Assembly: GCA_913056365.1 (NCBI GenBank)
Contig: CAJXLT010000019.1
Span: forward strand, 1 to 48,862
Reading direction: 5' to 3'
Length of the DNA: 48,862 nucleotides
Source: an uncultured Paenibacillaceae bacterium
GTDB taxonomy: Bacteria > Bacillota > Bacilli > Paenibacillales > K13
The notes under the pieces were generated by a model that was given only the letters and a program-made list of their open reading frames with translations, made no database searches and was not told the origin of the DNA. Shown in pieces: positions 1 through 44,696 of this stretch; within the stretch, counting starts at the first letter, position 1, and each line of letters starts with the position of its first letter. The position numbers and the translations under genes are program-made.

Positions 1-329
1 CGAAAGGATGTATGATCGCAGGCTTTGGCTGATTTGGCGCTATTTTCGAGTGAATGCCTGCACAATTGCATCTTTATTACCGATCCCACTTAATTCCTGC
101 GAATGTGCAGGCTTAGGTGGTGCTGGTGAGGCAATATCTCGAAATTCCTGCGAAAGTGCATCTTTCGAATGCTGAAATGACCGAATCGGGCTACTTGGGC
201 GTCGAAAGGATGTATGATCGCAGGCTTTGGCTGATTTGGCGCTATTTTCGAGTGAATGCCTGCACAATTGCATCTTTATCACCGATCCCACTCAAATTCC
301 TGCGAATGTGCAGGCTTAGGTGGTGCTGG
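1..329. repeat. Tandem copies of a TGC-type palindrome quartet (array A)
   Basis: Bases 1-126 recur at 203-329 with very few differences, so a 202-bp unit is tandemly repeated and probably continues beyond the left edge. Within it are 20-bp units of 8-bp arm, 4-bp centre, 8-bp arm. They start at 5, 55, 94, 145, 207, 257 and 297. Examples are TTCCTGCG-AATG-TGCAGGCT at 94 and TGCCTGCA-CAAT-TGCATCTT at 257. Steps between units at 94, 145, 207 and 257 are 51, 62 and 50 bp, the same rhythm as the clusters near 35.9 kb and 44.4 kb. Successive quartets are about 40 bp apart. The remaining bases to 435 hold no gene I can support. Confidence 0.8.
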
Positions 330-435
330 ACGCGCCGCCGCCAGTAAAGGGAGCAAGTACGCTGCTGCGTGTCCCAGACCTGCGGGCGAAGCACTACGTC
401 TTAATGACTCGAATCGGCTAATGCTGCTGCATGGC

Positions 436-1455: not shown

Positions 1456-2214
1456 TTAGCTCGTATAACCGAGCTGCCGAGAGATGCTTGCAGCAACTTG
1501 CCGAAGCTGCAGCCCAAGCTGGTCCAAAGCTGCTTCATCGACATGCGAGACAGTGGTAGAGATGCTGATTGCAGCTGTGACCTCTCCGGCATGATTCCGA
1601 ATAGGAGCCGCCGCGCAGCGCACACCCGGTTCATTCTCCTCGCGGTCATAGGCAATCCCTTCTTGATGAACTTGCTCTAATGCTTGCAGAAATTGCTCGC
1701 GGGATTGAATCGTATGAGGTGTATGCGAGTTGAAGGGATAGCTTTCCAGCAATCCGAGCAATTGGTCGCTCGGCATGAAGGCCGCCAGAATCTTCCCGCA
1801 AGCGCTGCTGTGAAGCGGGATGCTTCGCCCGATACGCGAGTAGCGGATCGGCGCTTTTGCTCCTTCCACCTTATCAATATATACGCCGTGTGCTCCTTCT
1901 ATGATGACTAGATGTGTAGTTTGTCCAGTATCGTCGGACAGCTGCTGCAGGAACGGTCGAGCTACGGTGCGAATGTCGAACCCTTGTAGCAGCAGCTGTC
2001 CCCGCTCGATTAGCTTGATGCCAAGCCTGTATTGGCCGGTATCTGGATTTTGCTCGATATAGCCATGCAATTGGAGGGTCTTCAGCAAGGAATGCACCGT
2101 GCTCTTATGCAACTGCATCTGGGCGCTAATCTCGGAGATCTTCAATTCTCTCGTCTGTTCATGGAACAGATCCAATATCCTCAGCGCGCGGTCTACGGCT
2201 TGTATGATTGGCAT
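1456..2214 (-). CDS. IclR family transcriptional regulator
   Basis: From the ATG at 2214 the protein has 252 residues, the usual IclR length. The N-terminal winged helix (AVDRALRILDLF, then ISAQMQLHKSTVHSLLKTLQLHGYI) is followed by the effector-binding domain, with typical LHSSACGKILAAF and DREENEPGVRCAAAPI segments. IclR proteins usually control catabolic operons in response to a small aromatic or keto-acid ligand. The FAH gene lies 133 bp downstream on the same strand and carries the same paired GTTCTA motif in its promoter, so it is the likely target together with autoregulation. An ATG at 2229 is an alternative start, but it abuts the AGG that would serve as its ribosome site. Confidence 0.93.
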   Translation of the reverse strand: MPIIQAVDRALRILDLFHEQTRELKISEISAQMQLHKSTVHSLLKTLQLHGYIEQNPDTGQYRLGIKLIERGQLLLQGFDIRTVARPFLQQLSDDTGQTTHLVIIEGAHGVYIDKVEGAKAPIRYSRIGRSIPLHSSACGKILAAFMPSDQLLGLLESYPFNSHTPHTIQSREQFLQALEQVHQEGIAYDREENEPGVRCAAAPIRNHAGEVTAAISISTTVSHVDEAALDQLGLQLRQVAASISRQLGYTS

Positions 2215-2234
2215 ATCGCACGTTACCATCCTGT

Positions 2235-2260
2235 GTTCTATATTATAGTACTGCGTTCTA
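2235..2260. promoter_or_regulatory. Candidate IclR autoregulatory operator
   Basis: GTTCTA at 2235 and again at 2255 (20-bp step) sits just upstream of the IclR start and repeats the arrangement found before the FAH gene. A third GTTCTA lies near 2285. Assignment to IclR is inferred from position and duplication. Confidence 0.5.
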
Positions 2261-2407
2261 TATAATTGTATCAGACGATGAGCCGTTCTAGCAAGATAAA
2301 AGCAAAGAAGATTATGATTCCATAAGGCTGAATCGATGGGCAGTTTTTTGATAGGTGCAATAGATGGGGTACGCTGCATCATTTTATTTGTATATAACAA
2401 ATGTGAT

Positions 2408-2887
2408 TCAGCCCCGGTCCTTGCTTATTTTCTGTCGCAATGAATCAGCCTGTTGGTGTAGGATTTGATTAGATCTTTCCAGATAATCGAGCAAGGTCTC
2501 AAGCTCTTGCGGTGTATATCTCGCATAGAGCTGGTTCATAGCCTCGGCCAACGGTCCGAATACTTCTTTAAGCTGATACAAGTTGGCATAGACGGGTTCA
2601 GCCCATACGATTCGCAGGTCGCCGGGGTCCTTAATGCGCCGCACGTAGCCGGCCTTCTCCAAGCGATTCAGCACACTTGTGATGGCACCGGTAGTCAGGC
2701 CGGTAAGTTCTGCGAGTTGACCGGCGGTGGCCCTCCCGGAACTGAGAATCAGATCCAGGCATTTGTGATCCGTAATGTTCAATCCAAGATAAGCTGCGAC
2801 GGTCTGATGGAACATGATCGTTTGTGTGGATAGACGCTTGGAAGCGTCATTAAGCGATGGGTACAGCTCGGCTGGTTCATGTGCCAT
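2408..2887 (-). CDS. MarR family transcriptional regulator
   Basis: This is a 159-residue winged-helix protein. The recognition region LAELTGLTTGAITSVLNRLE and the wing AGYVRRIKDPGDLR are standard MarR. The ATG at 2887 has GGAGGG 8 bases upstream, better than the in-frame alternative further 5'. It is divergent from the FAD monooxygenase at 3086, and the 198-bp gap holds a perfect 9-1-9 palindrome. MarR proteins commonly repress a divergent redox or efflux gene and release on binding a phenolic ligand. By that rule this protein should control the monooxygenase and multicopper oxidase pair. Confidence 0.93.
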   Translation of the reverse strand: MAHEPAELYPSLNDASKRLSTQTIMFHQTVAAYLGLNITDHKCLDLILSSGRATAGQLAELTGLTTGAITSVLNRLEKAGYVRRIKDPGDLRIVWAEPVYANLYQLKEVFGPLAEAMNQLYARYTPQELETLLDYLERSNQILHQQADSLRQKISKDRG

Positions 2888-3041
2888 GGGAAACGCCCTC
2901 CAATGCATAAGCCCGTGTCCGTAAATTCTATGCGGATTATATCATTTCCATCGAATGGACTGCAAAACCAGACTTAAGTCCAGCGAGATCTTCACGCAAT
3001 TATAGTAGAATGTTCCATAGCTTGGCCAAGGCGCAATCCAA

Positions 3042-3060
3042 TATCTTAATAATTAAGATA
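3042..3060. promoter_or_regulatory. Perfect palindromic operator, probable MarR site
   Basis: TATCTTAAT-A-ATTAAGATA is a perfect 9-1-9 inverted repeat, 25 bases before the monooxygenase ATG and between divergent MarR and monooxygenase genes. Its AT-rich dyad of this length is typical for MarR/DUF24-class binding. It lies close to the expected -10 region, consistent with repression. Confidence 0.75.
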
Positions 3061-3085
3061 AAATGACAAAGGAGCTGACAGAAGC

Positions 3086-4279
3086 ATGGATACAAAGAAA
3101 AAGGCACTGATCATCGGTTGCGGCATAGCAGGACCTGCTGCTGCTATATTCCTCCAGCGAGCGGGGATAGAACCCGTCATCTACGAAGCCATGTCTGCGC
3201 ATGATGACTACACAGGTTTGTTCCTGAATGTTGGAAGGAACGGAATCCGCGTACTTAAGGAGCTTGGAGCAGACGATATCATTCGCAAGGAAGGCATTGA
3301 AATGAACGTGATGCGTTTTTGCAATGGCAAGGGAAAGGCGCTTGGCGAACTGGGCCAATTCACCGGAGAACCCCAAGGCTATACGGTGAAGAGAGGATTG
3401 CTGCAAAGCGTATTACGCAAGAAGGCTGAGAGGCGAAACATCCCCATCCATCTCGGCTGCAAGCTCGTAGATATCCAGATGGCCGACGATAAGGTTACAG
3501 CCTTCTTCGATAATGGGACTTCTGTGGAGGGGGATTTTCTTGTCGGCTGCGATGGGATTCATTCGAAAGTGCGTCAGATGCTCTTGCCGGATGCAGCGAA
3601 GCCTTCCTATACGGGCTTGATCAGCTTCGGCGGCTATGCCGACAATCCCCGCGTTCTGTTGGAATCGGCTGTGCAACAGATGGTGTTTGGGAAGAGGGCG
3701 TTCTTTGGCTACCTTGGCAAGAAGCAAGATGAGATCTTCTGGTTCGGCAACCAATCGTACCCGGGGACACCGACCCGCCATGAGTTAGAGGCAATCCCCC
3801 AAACAGAATGGAGACGTGTCATTACCGGATTGTATCAAGACGACGCCGAACCGGTCATGGACATTATTCGAAGCACGAGAGGGGAAATTGGCATATACCC
3901 GATCTATGACATGCCTACTCAGCCTGCATGGCATAGCGGTTCTGCTGTGATAATCGGCGATGCGATCCACGCGACGTCGCCTAATGCCGGACAGGGAGCG
4001 TCGATGGCACTTGAGGATGCTATGCTATTGGCCAAGTGTGTCAGGGATATCGATCGGATCGAGCAAGCCTTCGTCAAGTTCCAAGCGTTGAGACGTGAAC
4101 GAGTGGACCAAATCGTGCAATATTCCCGTAGTCTAGGGCAGCGCAAACACGCAACGAACCCGATACAGGTCTTTTTTCGCGATCTGATGCTGCCATTCTT
4201 CCTGAAGTCTGCCAACAAGGATGCGCACGGCTGGATGTATGATTATACCATCCATTGGGATGAACGAATTTGTATATGA
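3086..4279 (+). CDS. FAD-dependent class A monooxygenase
   Basis: This 397-residue flavoprotein hydroxylase is of the p-hydroxybenzoate hydroxylase/TetX type. The N-terminal dinucleotide motif GCGIAGPAAAIFL binds FAD, the DG motif appears in DFLVGCDGIHSKVRQML, and the GD motif is GDAIHATSPNAGQGASMALED. These are soluble NAD(P)H-using enzymes that insert oxygen into aromatic or polycyclic substrates; the substrate cannot be told. AAGGAG lies 11 bases before the ATG. The gene is followed after 13 bp by the multicopper oxidase, so the two are almost certainly co-transcribed. Both are probably controlled by the divergent MarR protein through the 3042-3060 palindrome. Confidence 0.93.
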   Translation: MDTKKKALIIGCGIAGPAAAIFLQRAGIEPVIYEAMSAHDDYTGLFLNVGRNGIRVLKELGADDIIRKEGIEMNVMRFCNGKGKALGELGQFTGEPQGYTVKRGLLQSVLRKKAERRNIPIHLGCKLVDIQMADDKVTAFFDNGTSVEGDFLVGCDGIHSKVRQMLLPDAAKPSYTGLISFGGYADNPRVLLESAVQQMVFGKRAFFGYLGKKQDEIFWFGNQSYPGTPTRHELEAIPQTEWRRVITGLYQDDAEPVMDIIRSTRGEIGIYPIYDMPTQPAWHSGSAVIIGDAIHATSPNAGQGASMALEDAMLLAKCVRDIDRIEQAFVKFQALRRERVDQIVQYSRSLGQRKHATNPIQVFFRDLMLPFFLKSANKDAHGWMYDYTIHWDERICI

Positions 4280-10745: not shown

Positions 10746-10943
10746 CGTCGATACCTTCTTTGCACAGAGTTTGGTAAGGATCATTGTAGCACAGTCTTGA
10801 CGAATGTAGGAAAGGGTGGAGGGCTGGAGGAGCAGAGGGCGCGTAAGGGGCAGCGGATAGGTTCAAGTAAGCAACAGTATCCGGGGCGGAAAGAGTAGCG
10901 GTGATGAACGGAAAAAATGACTGGACTAGCCAGTTGAAATTGT

Positions 10944-11302
10944 AACCGTCACTCGAGAGGCTGTCTATTTAATGTGGACAGTTCTAATTTGAGGTTAAAA
11001 TGGCTCGAAATTAGCCTCTCAGATCAACCAAACTTGGGACTATGTTGATTTCGAAAAAACAAATCGATCTGAGGGGCAACTAGCGTACTATTCTGTCTTA
11101 GCAATTAAGTTATGAACAGTTAATAGACAGCCTCACTCGAGTCCGTTAGAGCGAAAAAGTAGGTTTTTTTGATTGACGCCGCTGTCCATTAGTGGCAAAA
11201 AACCGTCGTTTTGACCGATCTATTCAGCGCTTACGGTCATCCGTGACCGTTACATTGTCCAAAGACGCCGCACTCGCCCTGTAACGGTCACCTATGTCCG
11301 TG
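10944..11302. repeat. ACGGWCA palindrome quartet D1, interrupted by a MITE
   Basis: Four 20-bp units occur here. The first is AACCGTCA-CTCG-AGTCCGTT, split by the insertion at 10958-11133 plus its 8-bp duplication. The others start at 11171, 11232 and 11283, for example TACGGTCA-TCCG-TGACCGTT at 11232. Steps are 43 (after removing the insertion), 61 and 51 bp. The flanks from about 10900 to 11400 match those of the uninterrupted copy near 31360-31670, so the mobile unit is longer than the quartet. The 4-base centres CTCG, CCGC, TCCG, CCTA match those of the other copies position by position. Confidence 0.85.
10958..11133. mobile_element. 176-bp MITE with 8-bp target duplication
   Basis: The element begins with AGGCTGTCTATT and ends with its exact reverse complement. 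It is flanked by CACTCGAG at 10950-10957 and 11134-11141. Comparison with the paralogous repeat near 31403, which lacks the insert, shows the empty site. An internal stem pairs 11014-11025 with 11066-11077 (11 of 12). There is no coding capacity, so it must be moved in trans by a transposase giving 8-bp duplications; the family cannot be named from the ends alone. Confidence 0.85.
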
Positions 11303-11535
11303 AAAGTTAGTTCCAATCGGCTCAGTCGGCAGTAGCGTTATCATCAGCAAGGTCGATCGGCAGGTAACAAGCGTCAAGCCTGAGATAAGCACTGATGCAG
11401 ATGAACGGAATGCTGTCCTTTCTCGCAATACATGCAAAACGCACATATCTCCTTATGATAGTTAATCATGATTTACACTATTACCGGTAAAATGTAAATC
11501 GTACTTTGCATAAGTTACACTCCATGTGGATGATA

Positions 11536-12928: not shown

Positions 12929-12973
12929 AGCAGGTGGATGGCTGGTTTGCTGTTAATGAACACGAATGACGAT

Positions 12974-13149
12974 TTGTACGATTTGTCATATAAAATCAGC
13001 ACCGCATGGCGCATACCGACCACTTTTATACGAACCATCATACAAAATTGGCGTATCTCCATATGGATCTGCCCAATTTGTATGATGTTTCGTACAATTC
13101 CTGCACATTGGGGTTTGCTGAGCGCATAGTTGTACGATATATCGTACAA
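12974..13149. repeat. TTGTACGA palindrome quartet E with exact 52-bp period
   Basis: Four 20-bp units start at 12974, 13026, 13078 and 13130, each step exactly 52 bp. They fit TTGTAYGA-N4-TCRTACAA. The last, TTGTACGATATATCGTACAA, is a perfect palindrome. Unit 3 is the reverse complement of unit 2 at 18 of 20 positions, and the spacer between them is itself palindromic around CCATATGG, so the whole block is a large inverted repeat. Two more units of this type lie at 31668 and 31719. No gene overlaps; short frames across it are artefacts of the repeats. Confidence 0.85.
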
Positions 13150-13200
13150 GTGTAGGTGTGCGGGTCACAACAGCTCAAGACTTTGGAACCGGGAGCAAGC

Positions 13201-14157
13201 CTATTGCGGCTCGCTGCCTCCGGTCAGTGCGTCTATGACGAAATCTAATTGCAGCTCCAAGGAGATCGGATCATTGAACCAGAACGACTGCGCATCGTAT
13301 TCGAATACACGGTTATTTTGTACCGCGGGTATGTTCTTCCATGCTTCAGTCTCCATGAAGGAGTTCGCAGGCGCAGAAGCATCGATGCCGACGAACAGAT
13401 AATCCCCGGCGTATTGCGGGATGACTTCAGCGGAAATCGCCTTATAACCGGGTCCGAAGGCGTCCTCTACGATTTTGTCCGGCGCCTGCAACCCGAATGC
13501 TTGATACATGATCTCTGTGCCACGGCCATGATCGTTCCCGTATACAAAAATATCTTTCCCGAACGGTTCGATAACCGATACGGTTGCATCTTCCCCGATT
13601 GCTGCGATGACTTCCACAGCTGCTTCTCCTGTCTTCTCGTTCCATTCTTCGACCCAGGCTCTGGCTTCTTGTTCTTTTCCGAGCATCTTGCCAATTTCAA
13701 TATGCTGTTGCAAGTAATCGGTAGTTCCATATGTAAACGATACGGTTGGGGCAATCTCCTCATATTTGCTGATGTTCTGATCCGAAGTGAGCGCCAGGAT
13801 TAAGTCGGGCTCCAATTCCAACAGCTTCTCGATAGAACCCTCGGTCACGACTTCTACACCGTCCAGCATTCCTTCGAATGCTTTGTTTCCTTGCACCCAT
13901 TCACTGACGGCTACAGGTTTAATGCCTAACTGCAACACGTTTCCTACATAAATATGTGCTAACACAGCGACTCTCTCGGGATTAGCGGGAAGTTCGACAT
14001 CGCCGTTTTCAGAAGCATATATTCTTGTATCTGCACTAGTGTCTGCGGAGCCTTCCGACTCTGATTGTGGTGAATTGGCTTGGTTGGTACTGCCGCATGC
14101 CGCCAGCAAGCTCATGAGCATAACGGCAAGTAGGGCTAGGGATAACGGTTTTTTCAT
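13201..14157 (-). CDS. Iron-siderophore ABC transporter substrate-binding lipoprotein
   Basis: This 318-residue lipoprotein has signal MKKPLSLALLAVMLMSLLAAC with the lipobox LAAC. It is of the FecB/FeuA type: an N-terminal lobe (VELPANPERVAVLAHIYVGNVLQLGIKPVAVSEW), the ELEPDLILALTSDQNISKYEEIAPTVSF pattern, and a C-terminal lobe after a long helix. It should bind a ferric siderophore outside the membrane. GAGGAG lies 8 bases before the ATG, and a perfect Fur box lies 34-48 bases upstream of it. No permease or ATPase gene is adjacent, so it must share components encoded elsewhere. It is a paralogue of the gene at 27107. Confidence 0.93.
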   Translation of the reverse strand: MKKPLSLALLAVMLMSLLAACGSTNQANSPQSESEGSADTSADTRIYASENGDVELPANPERVAVLAHIYVGNVLQLGIKPVAVSEWVQGNKAFEGMLDGVEVVTEGSIEKLLELEPDLILALTSDQNISKYEEIAPTVSFTYGTTDYLQQHIEIGKMLGKEQEARAWVEEWNEKTGEAAVEVIAAIGEDATVSVIEPFGKDIFVYGNDHGRGTEIMYQAFGLQAPDKIVEDAFGPGYKAISAEVIPQYAGDYLFVGIDASAPANSFMETEAWKNIPAVQNNRVFEYDAQSFWFNDPISLELQLDFVIDALTGGSEPQ

Positions 14158-14190: not shown

Positions 14191-14205
14191 TGATAATGAT
14201 TATCA
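14191..14205. promoter_or_regulatory. Fur box
   Basis: TGATAAT-G-ATTATCA is a perfect 7-1-7 inverted repeat matching the Gram-positive Fur site, 34 bases before the start of the siderophore-binding lipoprotein. The identical 15-mer recurs before the paralogue at 28066. Confidence 0.9.
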
Positions 14206-14335
14206 ACGTCAATCAACATTGTATTCGGGCTACAGTTGTTTGTCAATAGCTATGGCATTGATCGAACGATAGAACCTATAGTTTAATGGAAGGATAGATG
14301 GATGCAACACGAATAACCGAATGGAGGTTAACTGC

Positions 14336-28027: not shown

Positions 28028-28065
28028 GTGTAATTGCTCCTTCTGCTAGTAAATGAATTATGATG

Positions 28066-28080
28066 ATAATGATTATCAAT
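28066..28080. promoter_or_regulatory. Fur box
   Basis: TGATAATGATTATCA is identical to the box at 14191 and precedes the second siderophore-binding gene. Confidence 0.9.
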
Positions 28081-28430
28081 GTCACAAAGTATAATATACG
28101 GTTTCCGAAGCCGCTTGTCAATGCAGAAAGGGGAAGAATATTAGCACTATCCTCGTGTGCGTTTGTACCCAATTCTGTTGAGGAGACGGGTCTACCGGAT
28201 GAATCTATTGATTATATTATCTGAGTCCAATCGTTCCAGTGGTTCGACCGTAACCATAAAGACGGGAACGTGCCTCTGAAATAGGGAGATGTATTTTTCT
28301 GGTTTATTTAGTGAGGAGTTTTAAGGGAATTGATAAGTATATCATAAAAAAATTCAAAAAATCAGTCTATTCATGTCGAAAATTAAGTAATACAATTATT
28401 ATTGTAAAAATTATGAAAGGAAGTGCTGTA
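28081..28430. other. Intergenic stretch without a gene
   Basis: This is divergent promoter space between the siderophore-binding gene and the FN3 protein gene. It becomes very AT-rich toward the right. I see no further gene; AAGGAAGTG near 28417 is the ribosome site of the FN3 gene. Confidence 0.5.
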
Positions 28431-31178: not shown

Positions 31179-31402
31179 TGAAGCATCCCCTTTTTTCCAT
31201 TGATGTTGTCGCACTGATGTTAGATTGTTATGTAGCATATAATTCACCATGATTCGACAAATTCCTGCTTGCTGCGTCCATTTCGTCATACACGAGCAGC
31301 CAATTTCATTATCGGATAGTAACTGATGCCCCTAAGATGCCAGTTCACTCGTTGCAGTGGTGGGGAACGGAAAGCAAGACTGGATCAGCAAGTTGAAACT
31401 GT

Positions 31403-31583
31403 GACGGTCACTCGTGTCCATTAGAGCGGAAAAAATACGTATTTTGATTTTTAACGGTCGCCGATGACCGCTAGCGGCACAAAATCGTCGTTTTGACCAG
31501 TCCATTCAGCGCTTACGGTCATCCGTGACCGTTACATTGGCAAACACGCCTCATACGCCTTGTAACGGTCACCTATGTCCGTT
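31403..31583. repeat. ACGGWCA palindrome quartet D2 (uninterrupted)
   Basis: 20-bp units start at 31403, 31453, 31514 and 31564 (steps 50, 61, 50). They read GACGGTCA-CTCG-TGTCCATT, AACGGTCG-CCGA-TGACCGCT, TACGGTCA-TCCG-TGACCGTT and AACGGTCA-CCTA-TGTCCGTT. Unit 3 reverse-complemented matches unit 2 at about 16 of 20. Homology with D1 extends from about 31360 to 31670, outside the units. The rest of the gap 31179-31878 holds only the small repeat at 31668. Confidence 0.85.
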
Positions 31584-31667
31584 GAAGTTACTTCCAATCA
31601 TCATAGCAGCAGCGTTATCATCAGCATGGATGATCGACAGTTACCAAGCATCCAGCCGGGGCTAAGT

Positions 31668-31738
31668 AGTAACGAAAAATCGTTTAAAACGGGCGACATG
31701 ACCTATGTTGGACTGATTTTGTATGACATATCGTACTA
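31668..31738. repeat. Two further 8-4-8 palindromes, 51 bp apart
   Basis: AGTAACGA-AAAA-TCGTTTAA at 31668 and TTGTATGA-CATA-TCGTACTA at 31719 have the same geometry as the quartet at 12974, and the second closely matches its arms. This looks like half of such a quartet. Confidence 0.55.
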
Positions 31739-35897: not shown

Positions 35898-36079
35898 AAA
35901 CTGCGAATATGCAGGAATCCCTCGCGCAAGGAGCCGCAACTGGGGAATGCCTGCGAATATGCAGGTTCTATTAAAGAAAAGCCCTCAATCGATGATTTCA
36001 GCATCAAAAGGATGTAAATACGCAGCAATCTCGGGTCCTCTTCCCGATTTCACTATGCAAGCCTGCACATTTGCAGCAA
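35898..36079. repeat. TGC-type palindrome quartet B
   Basis: Units start at 35898, 35948, 36009 and 36060 (steps 50, 61, 51): AAACTGCG-AATA-TGCAGGAA, TGCCTGCG-AATA-TGCAGGTT, AGGATGTA-AATA-CGCAGCAA and AGCCTGCA-CATT-TGCAGCAA. Unit 4 is close to the reverse complement of unit 1 of array A. It occupies the convergent gap between the LysR gene and the transporter operon; nothing else is seen in 35802-36134. Confidence 0.85.
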
Positions 36080-36134
36080 TGCCGAGGCTTCTCTATTCCA
36101 CTAGCCTGATGGAGATGGGCCAGCTTCCTATTCG

Positions 36135-39660: not shown

Positions 39661-39842
39661 AACGGACATGGATGACCGCTATAGGTCGTATCGAGCGCTT
39701 TTGCCATAGTAACGGACACGGATGACCGTAAGCGTTGAATATACCAGTCAACACAGTCGTTTTCGGCTTCTATTGGACATCGGCGACCGTTACAAATCGA
39801 AAACACACTATTCTTTCACTCTTACGGACACGAGCGTCCGTT
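39661..39842. repeat. ACGGWCA palindrome quartet D3, inverted
   Basis: Units start at 39661, 39711, 39772 and 39823 (steps 50, 61, 51). Reverse-complemented, they match D2 unit by unit, including the centres CTCG, CCGA and TCCG for units 1 to 3. It lies in the 657-bp gap between the binding-protein gene and the HxlR gene. The rest of that gap (39843-40176) is AT-rich divergent promoter space without a gene. Confidence 0.85.
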
Positions 39843-40176
39843 ACATCCCTATCGATGGGTCCAGTCTTCTATCTGTTCGCGATCACGGTCCTATCTGAGA
39901 CTCTTGATCGTCGGTACACATCAACATATATCGAGCAGACACACAACGTATCGTTCAACCTATATAGTAGTTATGATTTTTTCTCAACAACATAAGAACA
40001 AAAGTTCATCAACTAATGTAGCACCAAATGAAGAGAAAGTAAATTGCAACGGAGCTGCAAGCTCCACCTATGGACATGTAGAGAAGATGCGGGGAAGTCG
40101 TTCTCTCCTGAAACCTTGTATGCAAGTAGCAACCGCGGAACGTATGCCAGTATAATGTAGGAAAAAGGGGGCGGCT

Positions 40177-44267: not shown

Positions 44268-44536
44268 TGTCGCTCGAATGAGGCGCGACGGATGAATTCG
44301 GTTCTACAGCGGACGTTCAGTTTTGTCGCTCGAATGAGCCGACACGGATGAATGGCTGCGATTGTGCAGGCTTTGCCGCCTTGAATTAGGGGAATACTCG
44401 GATTTGCTGCGAATCTACATGTTTCCCTTTTCGAAATCGCCGGTATGACCACCTTGTCCTGCGAAATCCTGCACAATCGTCGGCATTTATATAAACAGCA
44501 CGGTTTCAGTGCGTAATTCCTGCACTTTCGCATCTT
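44268..44536. repeat. TGC-type palindrome quartet C plus a two-unit tandem repeat
   Basis: Quartet units start at 44353, 44404, 44466 and 44517 (steps 51, 62, 51), for example TGGCTGCG-ATTG-TGCAGGCT and TTCCTGCA-CTTT-CGCATCTT. To the left, TGTCGCTC-GAAT-GAG with GC-rich right arms occurs at 44268 and 44324 (56 bp apart) in nearly identical 40-bp context. No gene is supported in 44241-44856. Confidence 0.8.
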
Positions 44537-44696
44537 TCACCTACTGGGTATCCTACTTGTAAGAAGGACAGCCGAACCGTTACGGCGTATGTGCATGTAC
44601 AGAACGAATCCACTAATCATTCGTAGATTTGCTGCTAGGAAGCGCACCTTTCGCCGCTGAAAAAAACATGCTCGACACACTCGACACACGTATCAA

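Follow-up and report, generated by a model that had tools for sequence, protein, structure and literature searches.

Based on the evidence brought together in this study, the short element found at the centre of a palindrome in the window (the whole stretch of 48,862 nucleotides analysed, from an uncultured Paenibacillaceae bacterium) is likely a MITE that was mobilised in trans by an IS1182-like DDE transposase reading symmetric half-sites in double-stranded DNA. Each of two transposase subunits would bind one half of a double-stranded target that is symmetric, 21-22 bp long and of the form TA-N6-(5 or 6 bp)-N6-TA, its half-sites resembling TARCGGNC, and the pair would join the element ends to the two strands at points 5-6 bp apart across the dyad. 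Repair of the gaps would then duplicate the central 5-6 bp and leave one half of the palindrome on each side. Because another repeat carries four palindromes per copy, the half-site is abundant in the element's own genome, and the MITE would thus come to lie nested in an array of that repeat.

The window element and its own genome

Bacterial MITEs are short, non-coding elements with inverted ends and a target duplication, whose source IS lies elsewhere. In the window, a stretch of 176 bp is bounded by perfect 12-bp inverted repeats (AGGCTGTCTATT / AATAGACAGCCT), no ORF of at least 90 aa in the ORF list runs across the element (178 bp with its outer bases), and the flanking duplication is perfect over 6 (or 8) bp. 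Its ends are common with those of an autonomous element, GAGGCTGTCGATTAACTGTT...CACAATGAATCGACAGCCTC flanking a transposase in Cohnella thermotolerans. The features of the site and of the related arrays in the window are as follows.

10957..11134, no strand assigned: MITE (10958-11133 in the first reading), probable extent from the 12-bp inverted ends and the constancy of the outer G
10951..10956, + strand: left target duplication, probably ACTCGA, an exact repeat, 5-6 bp in most relatives (8-bp reading CACTCGAG, 10950-10957)
11135..11140, + strand: right target duplication, probably ACTCGA, an exact repeat (8-bp reading CACTCGAG, 11134-11141)
10943..10950, + strand: left palindrome arm TAACCGTC in unit 1 of the array, a unit uninterrupted in 15 other aligned arrays
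11141..11148, + strand: right palindrome arm GTCCGTTA, from the empty-site reconstruction
10897..11389, + strand: array element hosting the MITE (length includes the MITE), from repeat families D4, D8, D9 and D10, unit scan and alignment
10943-11148 (split by the MITE), ~11172-11192 (decayed), 11232-11251 and 11283-11302, + strand: palindromes of the host array, from the unit scan
31356..31673, + strand: paralogous array without the MITE, units at 31403, 31453, 31514 and 31564, right end CTAAGTAGTAAC at 31662-31673
39661..39845, - strand: third array of the window, in opposite orientation and uninterrupted, from repeat families I1, I2 and I4 and alignment

Exact matches to CACTCGAG number two in the window, one on each side of the 176-bp element. 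Excision of the element together with one repeat gives the empty site TAACCGTC-ACTCGA-GTCCGTTA, where the repeat symmetrically straddles the dyad of an 8-4-8 palindrome, and the window copy retains both palindrome halves, one on each side. The earlier note's central claim, a MITE inserted exactly at the centre of a palindromic unit, is borne out by the inverted ends, the symmetric repeat and the exact dyad position, and most relatives are placed likewise. The same holds for the paralogue proposed as the empty site: its unit at 31403 (GACGGTCACTCGTGTCCATT) is uninterrupted, and its flanks align to the window site in blocks at 80-86%. No insertion in unit 1 was found in the 15 other arrays aligned (two from the window and 13 picked from palindrome matches in the genome). 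The claimed 8-bp duplication stands as an observed perfect repeat but probably overstates the duplicated target by one base at either side. From the window copy by itself, 6 and 8 bp are indistinguishable. Since, of 93 distinct exact ends (window element and relatives), 91 have G just outside AGGCTGTC, the outer G and C are probably part of the element, which would then have GAGGCTGTC...GACAGCCTC as its natural ends and cover 178 bp (10957-11134), with ACTCGA, 6 bp, as the probable duplication.

The exact window element is present as a single copy in its own genome, and no relative of the whole element was found in 59 other genomes searched. Its kin in the own genome is a 248-bp form with common ends, represented by two copies and a left-end remnant.

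C15:18275-18522 and C3:147171-147418: 248-bp relative with nearly identical ends, adjoining half of a palindrome unit
C5:210534: lone left end, adjoining half of the same kind of palindrome

A search of the own genome with the ends (AGGCTGTCTATT, at most one mismatch) returned 40 matches, whereas the reversed control returned 14. Of the 40, thirty and some more were inspected by sequence, the last ten in part; among those inspected, only the window element, both 248-bp copies and a single left end adjoin a palindrome half, and the rest look like chance. Palindromes of the host-array type are found 83 times in this genome of 4.65 Mb at 0-1 mismatch, and three times with the reversed pattern; this count, together with the own-genome relatives adjoining half-units, makes a chance position on the dyad unlikely. 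At C15 the 248-bp copy is flanked on the left by DNA that stops in the unit 1 loop (ACTCGT) and on the right by DNA that begins in the unit 3 loop (ATCCGT), so the stretch separating these two palindromes has gone. Such a gap would arise if two copies inserted and then recombined with each other; alternatively, a single event may have bridged two palindromes. The right side of the C3 copy is displaced too, and both complete 248-bp copies of the own genome are without a duplication of 5 bp. At C1:260955-261120 a decayed relative (88% over 166 of 249 bases) begins GAGCCCGACGATTAG after CTGTATTTTGTACGAT, a flank outside the host palindrome family that has TA at the expected distance on the left.

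Relatives across the order and their transposase

Elements with such ends extend well beyond the source genome. Of 392 genomes in the order, 23 contain the end pattern AGGCTGTCKATTNNNTGTG; the reversed control gave none among the matches listed. From a part of the pattern matches, 93 two-ended copies in 24 genomes, the own one included, were examined (64 in a first sample, 29 in a second), the short elements of relatives being 74-577 bp long. One-ended loci were left out of the counts, for instance 11 of 40 in the second sample; those dropped for having one recognisable end also include L035, L064, L065, L068, L072, L103, L105, L121, L122, L134, L136, L137, L142, L147, L158 and others. Of the 93 copies, 77 are flanked by a 5-7 bp duplication with no more than one mismatch (exact in 58), its length being 5 bp in 55, 6 bp in 21 and 7 bp in one. 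The other 16 copies show no 5-bp duplication, and TA is kept on both sides in nine of them, on one side in six and on neither in one. The check proposed earlier, a search for further copies on palindromes, was thus answered by relatives: the exact 176-bp element is single, but related copies lie mostly on the dyads of symmetric sites.

In nine full-length elements, 1.9-2.2 kb long, related ends enclose a transposase gene. These elements are flanked by duplications of 5-7 bp (eight exact, one with one mismatch), their ends having been chosen by eye from candidates with the flanks in view.

G345, Cohnella thermotolerans DSM 17683 (Paenibacillaceae): 2005-bp element, 571-aa transposase, duplication AGTTT
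L154, L155, L156, L159-L162 and L164: eight other full elements in seven other genomes, related ends, transposase gene of L154 interrupted

The target of the Cohnella thermotolerans element reads TAACGGCC-AGTTT-GTCCGTAA, and L158 is a further full-length candidate of which the left end alone is resolved. For nine of nine transposases scored (L158 included, the interrupted L154 omitted), the NCBIfam model IS1182 (NF033551) is the best one, at 203.5-244.7 bits; since all nine lie below the 270-bit equivalog cut-off, we call these partners "IS1182-like". The Pfam models DUF772, DDE_Tnp_1 and DDE_Tnp_1_6 score above cut-off in all four transposases tested. D389 and E514 (numbering of the first sequence) are invariant in all nine, the first D not being aligned in every one. 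A contig scan for the partner element gave two loci, both from Cohnella thermotolerans. Plasmid records matching the transposase numbered 1047; identity was below 60% in all of them, none reached 80% coverage of the query, and among the matches listed 8 of 15 are annotated as IS1182 family. No sequence of a solved structure matched the transposase up to E = 1.

The full insertion sequence with such ends that the earlier note asked for therefore exists ninefold in relatives, but searches of the own genome (99.31% complete, 34 contigs) yielded none, and returned neither a DUF772 match nor any protein close to the Cohnella one. The one congener searched has four DUF772 matches, one of them within a related full element. 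The source transposase would accordingly have been lost from the own genome, or an assembly gap may account for its absence. Because the own genome yielded no such transposase, it is the likeness of the ends (~12-20 terminal bases) that points to mobilisation in trans.

Two longer candidates for a full insertion sequence were rejected. L104 spans 2395 bp between ends, its ORFs resemble host genes, and separate MITEs fit the locus. L093 (1817 bp; 2075-3893, G064:C8) is an IS3-type element flanked by inverted copies of the first ~226 bp of a 282-bp MITE, and we read it as a passenger, not as a source. This composite sits in a palindrome with a 6-bp duplication (one mismatch) and may move as a unit. 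At another place, in G071, two MITE copies in different positions (L145 and L149) have similar flanking half-sites in opposite orientation, so that the element may have carried its flanks along, or else a duplication of the locus took place.

How the target is recognised

To compare targets, sites with look-alike outer flanks were removed, which left 66 of 77 sites from 24 genomes. Complementarity across the dyad over eight positions is 55% at these sites and falls to 18-31% once the centre is displaced by 1-8 bases. The firmest feature of the target is TA at positions 7-8 outside the duplication, present on the left in 50, on the right in 53 and on both sides in 41 of the 66. With a 5- or 6-bp duplication allowed, TA lies at the expected distance on the left of 74 and on the right of 77 of all 93 copies, compared with control means of 7.6 and 7.9. 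Base counts in the first sample give the consensus TARCGGAC-N5/6-GTCCGYTA. The targets thus share TA-N6-(5/6)-N6-TA with roughly mirror-image arms, and the comparison shows the inner arms to be loosely specified: 0-1 of the six inner positions are complementary in 14 of the 66 sites, and the full element L156, from the same genus as the window genome, has a hardly symmetric target (one of eight pairs). Copies in non-palindromic targets, named earlier as what would speak against the claim, do occur where a strict palindrome is meant, but the weaker symmetric TA...TA site is mostly kept. An initial filter had merged sites differing at no more than 5 of 24 target bases and kept 46 of 51 in the first sample and 13 of 26 in the second. 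With it, inner-arm pairing in the first sample was 132 of 276 (103.6 shuffled), and the 13 sites of the second showed no excess at the inner six positions (23 of 78, compared with 23.5); just seven of these 13 had TA on both sides, and the peak at the centre was weaker, 42% against 14-37% when slid. This filter leans against the symmetry claim because it discards consensus-like sites, and it was replaced by the comparison of outer flanks.

Recognition of an extruded hairpin or cruciform with cleavage in its loop, which corresponds to pathway c in the model of Wan et al. 2017, would also yield symmetric targets with the duplication inside the loop, and IS1272, of the IS1182 family, is reported in the accessible parts of the sources to target stem-loops with little or no consensus in primary sequence. 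We consider this unlikely here. A hairpin demands that the two arms of one site fit each other, but within genomes they pair no better than arms exchanged between sites: 105 of 258 inner pairs, compared with 103.3 (sd 6.6) after right arms were swapped, in a test of a few sites per genome (43 sites in six genomes with at least three sites each; G223, where the swap changes nothing, omitted). Single genomes scatter both ways (25 vs 20.8 in G087, 16 vs 19.0 in G360). The 14 of 66 sites with at most one inner pair speak against the hairpin as well, and so does TA at a fixed position far above control, for which a purely structural rule has no need. Between genomes the arms do co-vary, as a hairpin would have it: one site per genome gives 53 of 102 pairs in 17 genomes against 37.4 shuffled, with one shuffle in 2000 as high, and the eight full elements, which overlap the 17, give 26 of 48 against 15.8 (3 of 2000 shuffles). 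Half-site reading is favoured over the hairpin because the arms co-vary between genomes but not within one, and lineages seem to have their own mirror-symmetric half-site; the co-variation between genomes could alternatively stem from which palindromic repeats happen to be available in each genome. Of the earlier suggestion that the transposase targets hairpins or palindromes, the second part is supported by symmetric sites in most relatives and the first is disfavoured by the pairing counts. The many natural insertions with preserved palindrome separate target structure from target sequence and point to half-site reading; if this is true, target choice could differ predictably between transposases.

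Duplications of 8 bp are characteristic of other families (IS1595, ISL3, IS66 and the like), and the perfect 8-bp repeat of CACTCGAG, along with 8-bp duplications at two copies of the host repeat itself, might assign the window element to one of these instead of to an IS1182-like source. This is highly improbable in view of the near constancy of the outer G/C (91 of 93 ends), the variable inner duplication of mostly 5-6 bp and the IS1182-like proteins between such ends. That the element has no preference, and that palindromic repeats, present in many copies, are merely safe and abundant landing places where insertions survive, is hardly credible given a dyad position exact to the base, pairing that falls to background on a slide of one base and full elements that keep the symmetry in genomes with differing arms.

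Nesting, known systems and neighbouring repeats

The repeat that hosts the MITE is itself mobile-looking. It consists of four palindromes, spaced 50, 61 and 50 bases in the paralogue, and some copies are bounded by GTTACTACTTAG...CTAAGTAGTAAC. Two copies have perfect 8-bp duplications, CTCTATCT (L033) and CTTAATGG (L240), and the array element at L033 contains a 248-bp MITE.

Window 31356-31673, L033 568-1174 and L240 152-616: second MITE-like family, the four-palindrome repeat, from its ends and 8-bp duplications

Because the palindromes belong to a second repeat, which has inverted ends and 8-bp duplications of its own, the nesting is real: the second mobile-looking element supplies targets, and IS1182-like MITEs enter them. 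The nested spread of two element types proposed earlier is supported in this form, and it suggests a route by which nests of palindromic repeats and small mobile elements arise in such genomes. A wider reading, which we hold tentatively and rate somewhat short of probable, is that an IS1182-like subgroup and its MITEs use a symmetric 21-22 bp target, particular to the lineage and read as a pair of double-stranded half-sites (TA plus six bases), and that the elements seed new targets for each other in a self-propagating nest. Mutual seeding is suggested because some mobile elements carry half-sites or palindromes, namely the array element of the own genome and the 282-bp MITE of G064, in whose interior half-sites of the TAACGGAC type were seen by eye.

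Compared with bacterial MITEs in general, the dyad-centred target and the nesting in a target-carrying repeat are the features of the present elements. Palindrome targeting as such is already known in the IS1182 family. According to the accessible parts of the sources, IS1272 enters inverted repeats, replaces or deletes the stem-loop and leaves no duplication (PMC5678879, PMC4923244), and palindrome targets of some IS1182 members are credited to a review by Siguier et al. quoted in both. The present elements resemble IS1272 and TnSha1 of staphylococci in their DDE transposase, for which IS1182 is the best model, and in insertion at inverted repeats. They differ, as far as IS1272 can be compared by its description there, in that the palindrome is kept and split, with a central duplication of 5-6 bp and a TA half-site motif. 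Replacement of the stem-loop in the manner of IS1272 is not what we find, with 77 of 93 copies duplicated and both halves kept at the window copy. Selective insertion into a repeated extragenic palindrome is likewise described, in the part of PMC1525189 available, for IS1397, ISKpn1, IS621, ISPpu9/10 and ISRm22, which target REP or palindromic units and belong to the families IS3, IS110, IS4, IS256 and IS5; these are full ISs of other families in REP, whereas here MITEs enter palindromes in the order of Cohnella. The same source, in that part, proposes that transposases may recognise palindromes in the way regulators recognise their own. Our literature search, which covered mainly freely accessible papers, gave no 5-6 bp duplication at palindrome centres for IS1182-type elements and no MITEs of such kind in Paenibacillus. 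As far as the literature searched shows, what is new is a palindrome that survives the insertion with 5-6 bp duplicated at its centre, together with the half-site motif containing TA, the MITEs and the findings that speak against the need for a hairpin.

Other repeats accompany these elements. An array of another palindromic family (TTTGTACGAT..ATCGTACAAA) occupies window 12972-13153, and this family also makes up the inner part of the 248-bp MITE, which seems to have captured it. At L059 / L247 (G000:C1 ~1123850-1124110) a palindrome array lies between stretches like the 248-bp MITE, with a decayed right end ...CACAATGAATTGACA and a left part identified by eye; this is possibly the opposite nesting, an array inside a MITE. 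A further repeat family with CCTGCG...GCAGG units is found at window 1-330, 35946-36080 and 44351-44538, its stretches 1-93 and 203-295 being 98% identical. The palindrome TGATAATGATTATCA is common to window 14191-14228 and 28064-28101, the first of which lies upstream of the gene at 13201-14157 (minus strand); we take the palindrome to resemble a Fur box, and the gene product is presumably an iron-siderophore binding protein.
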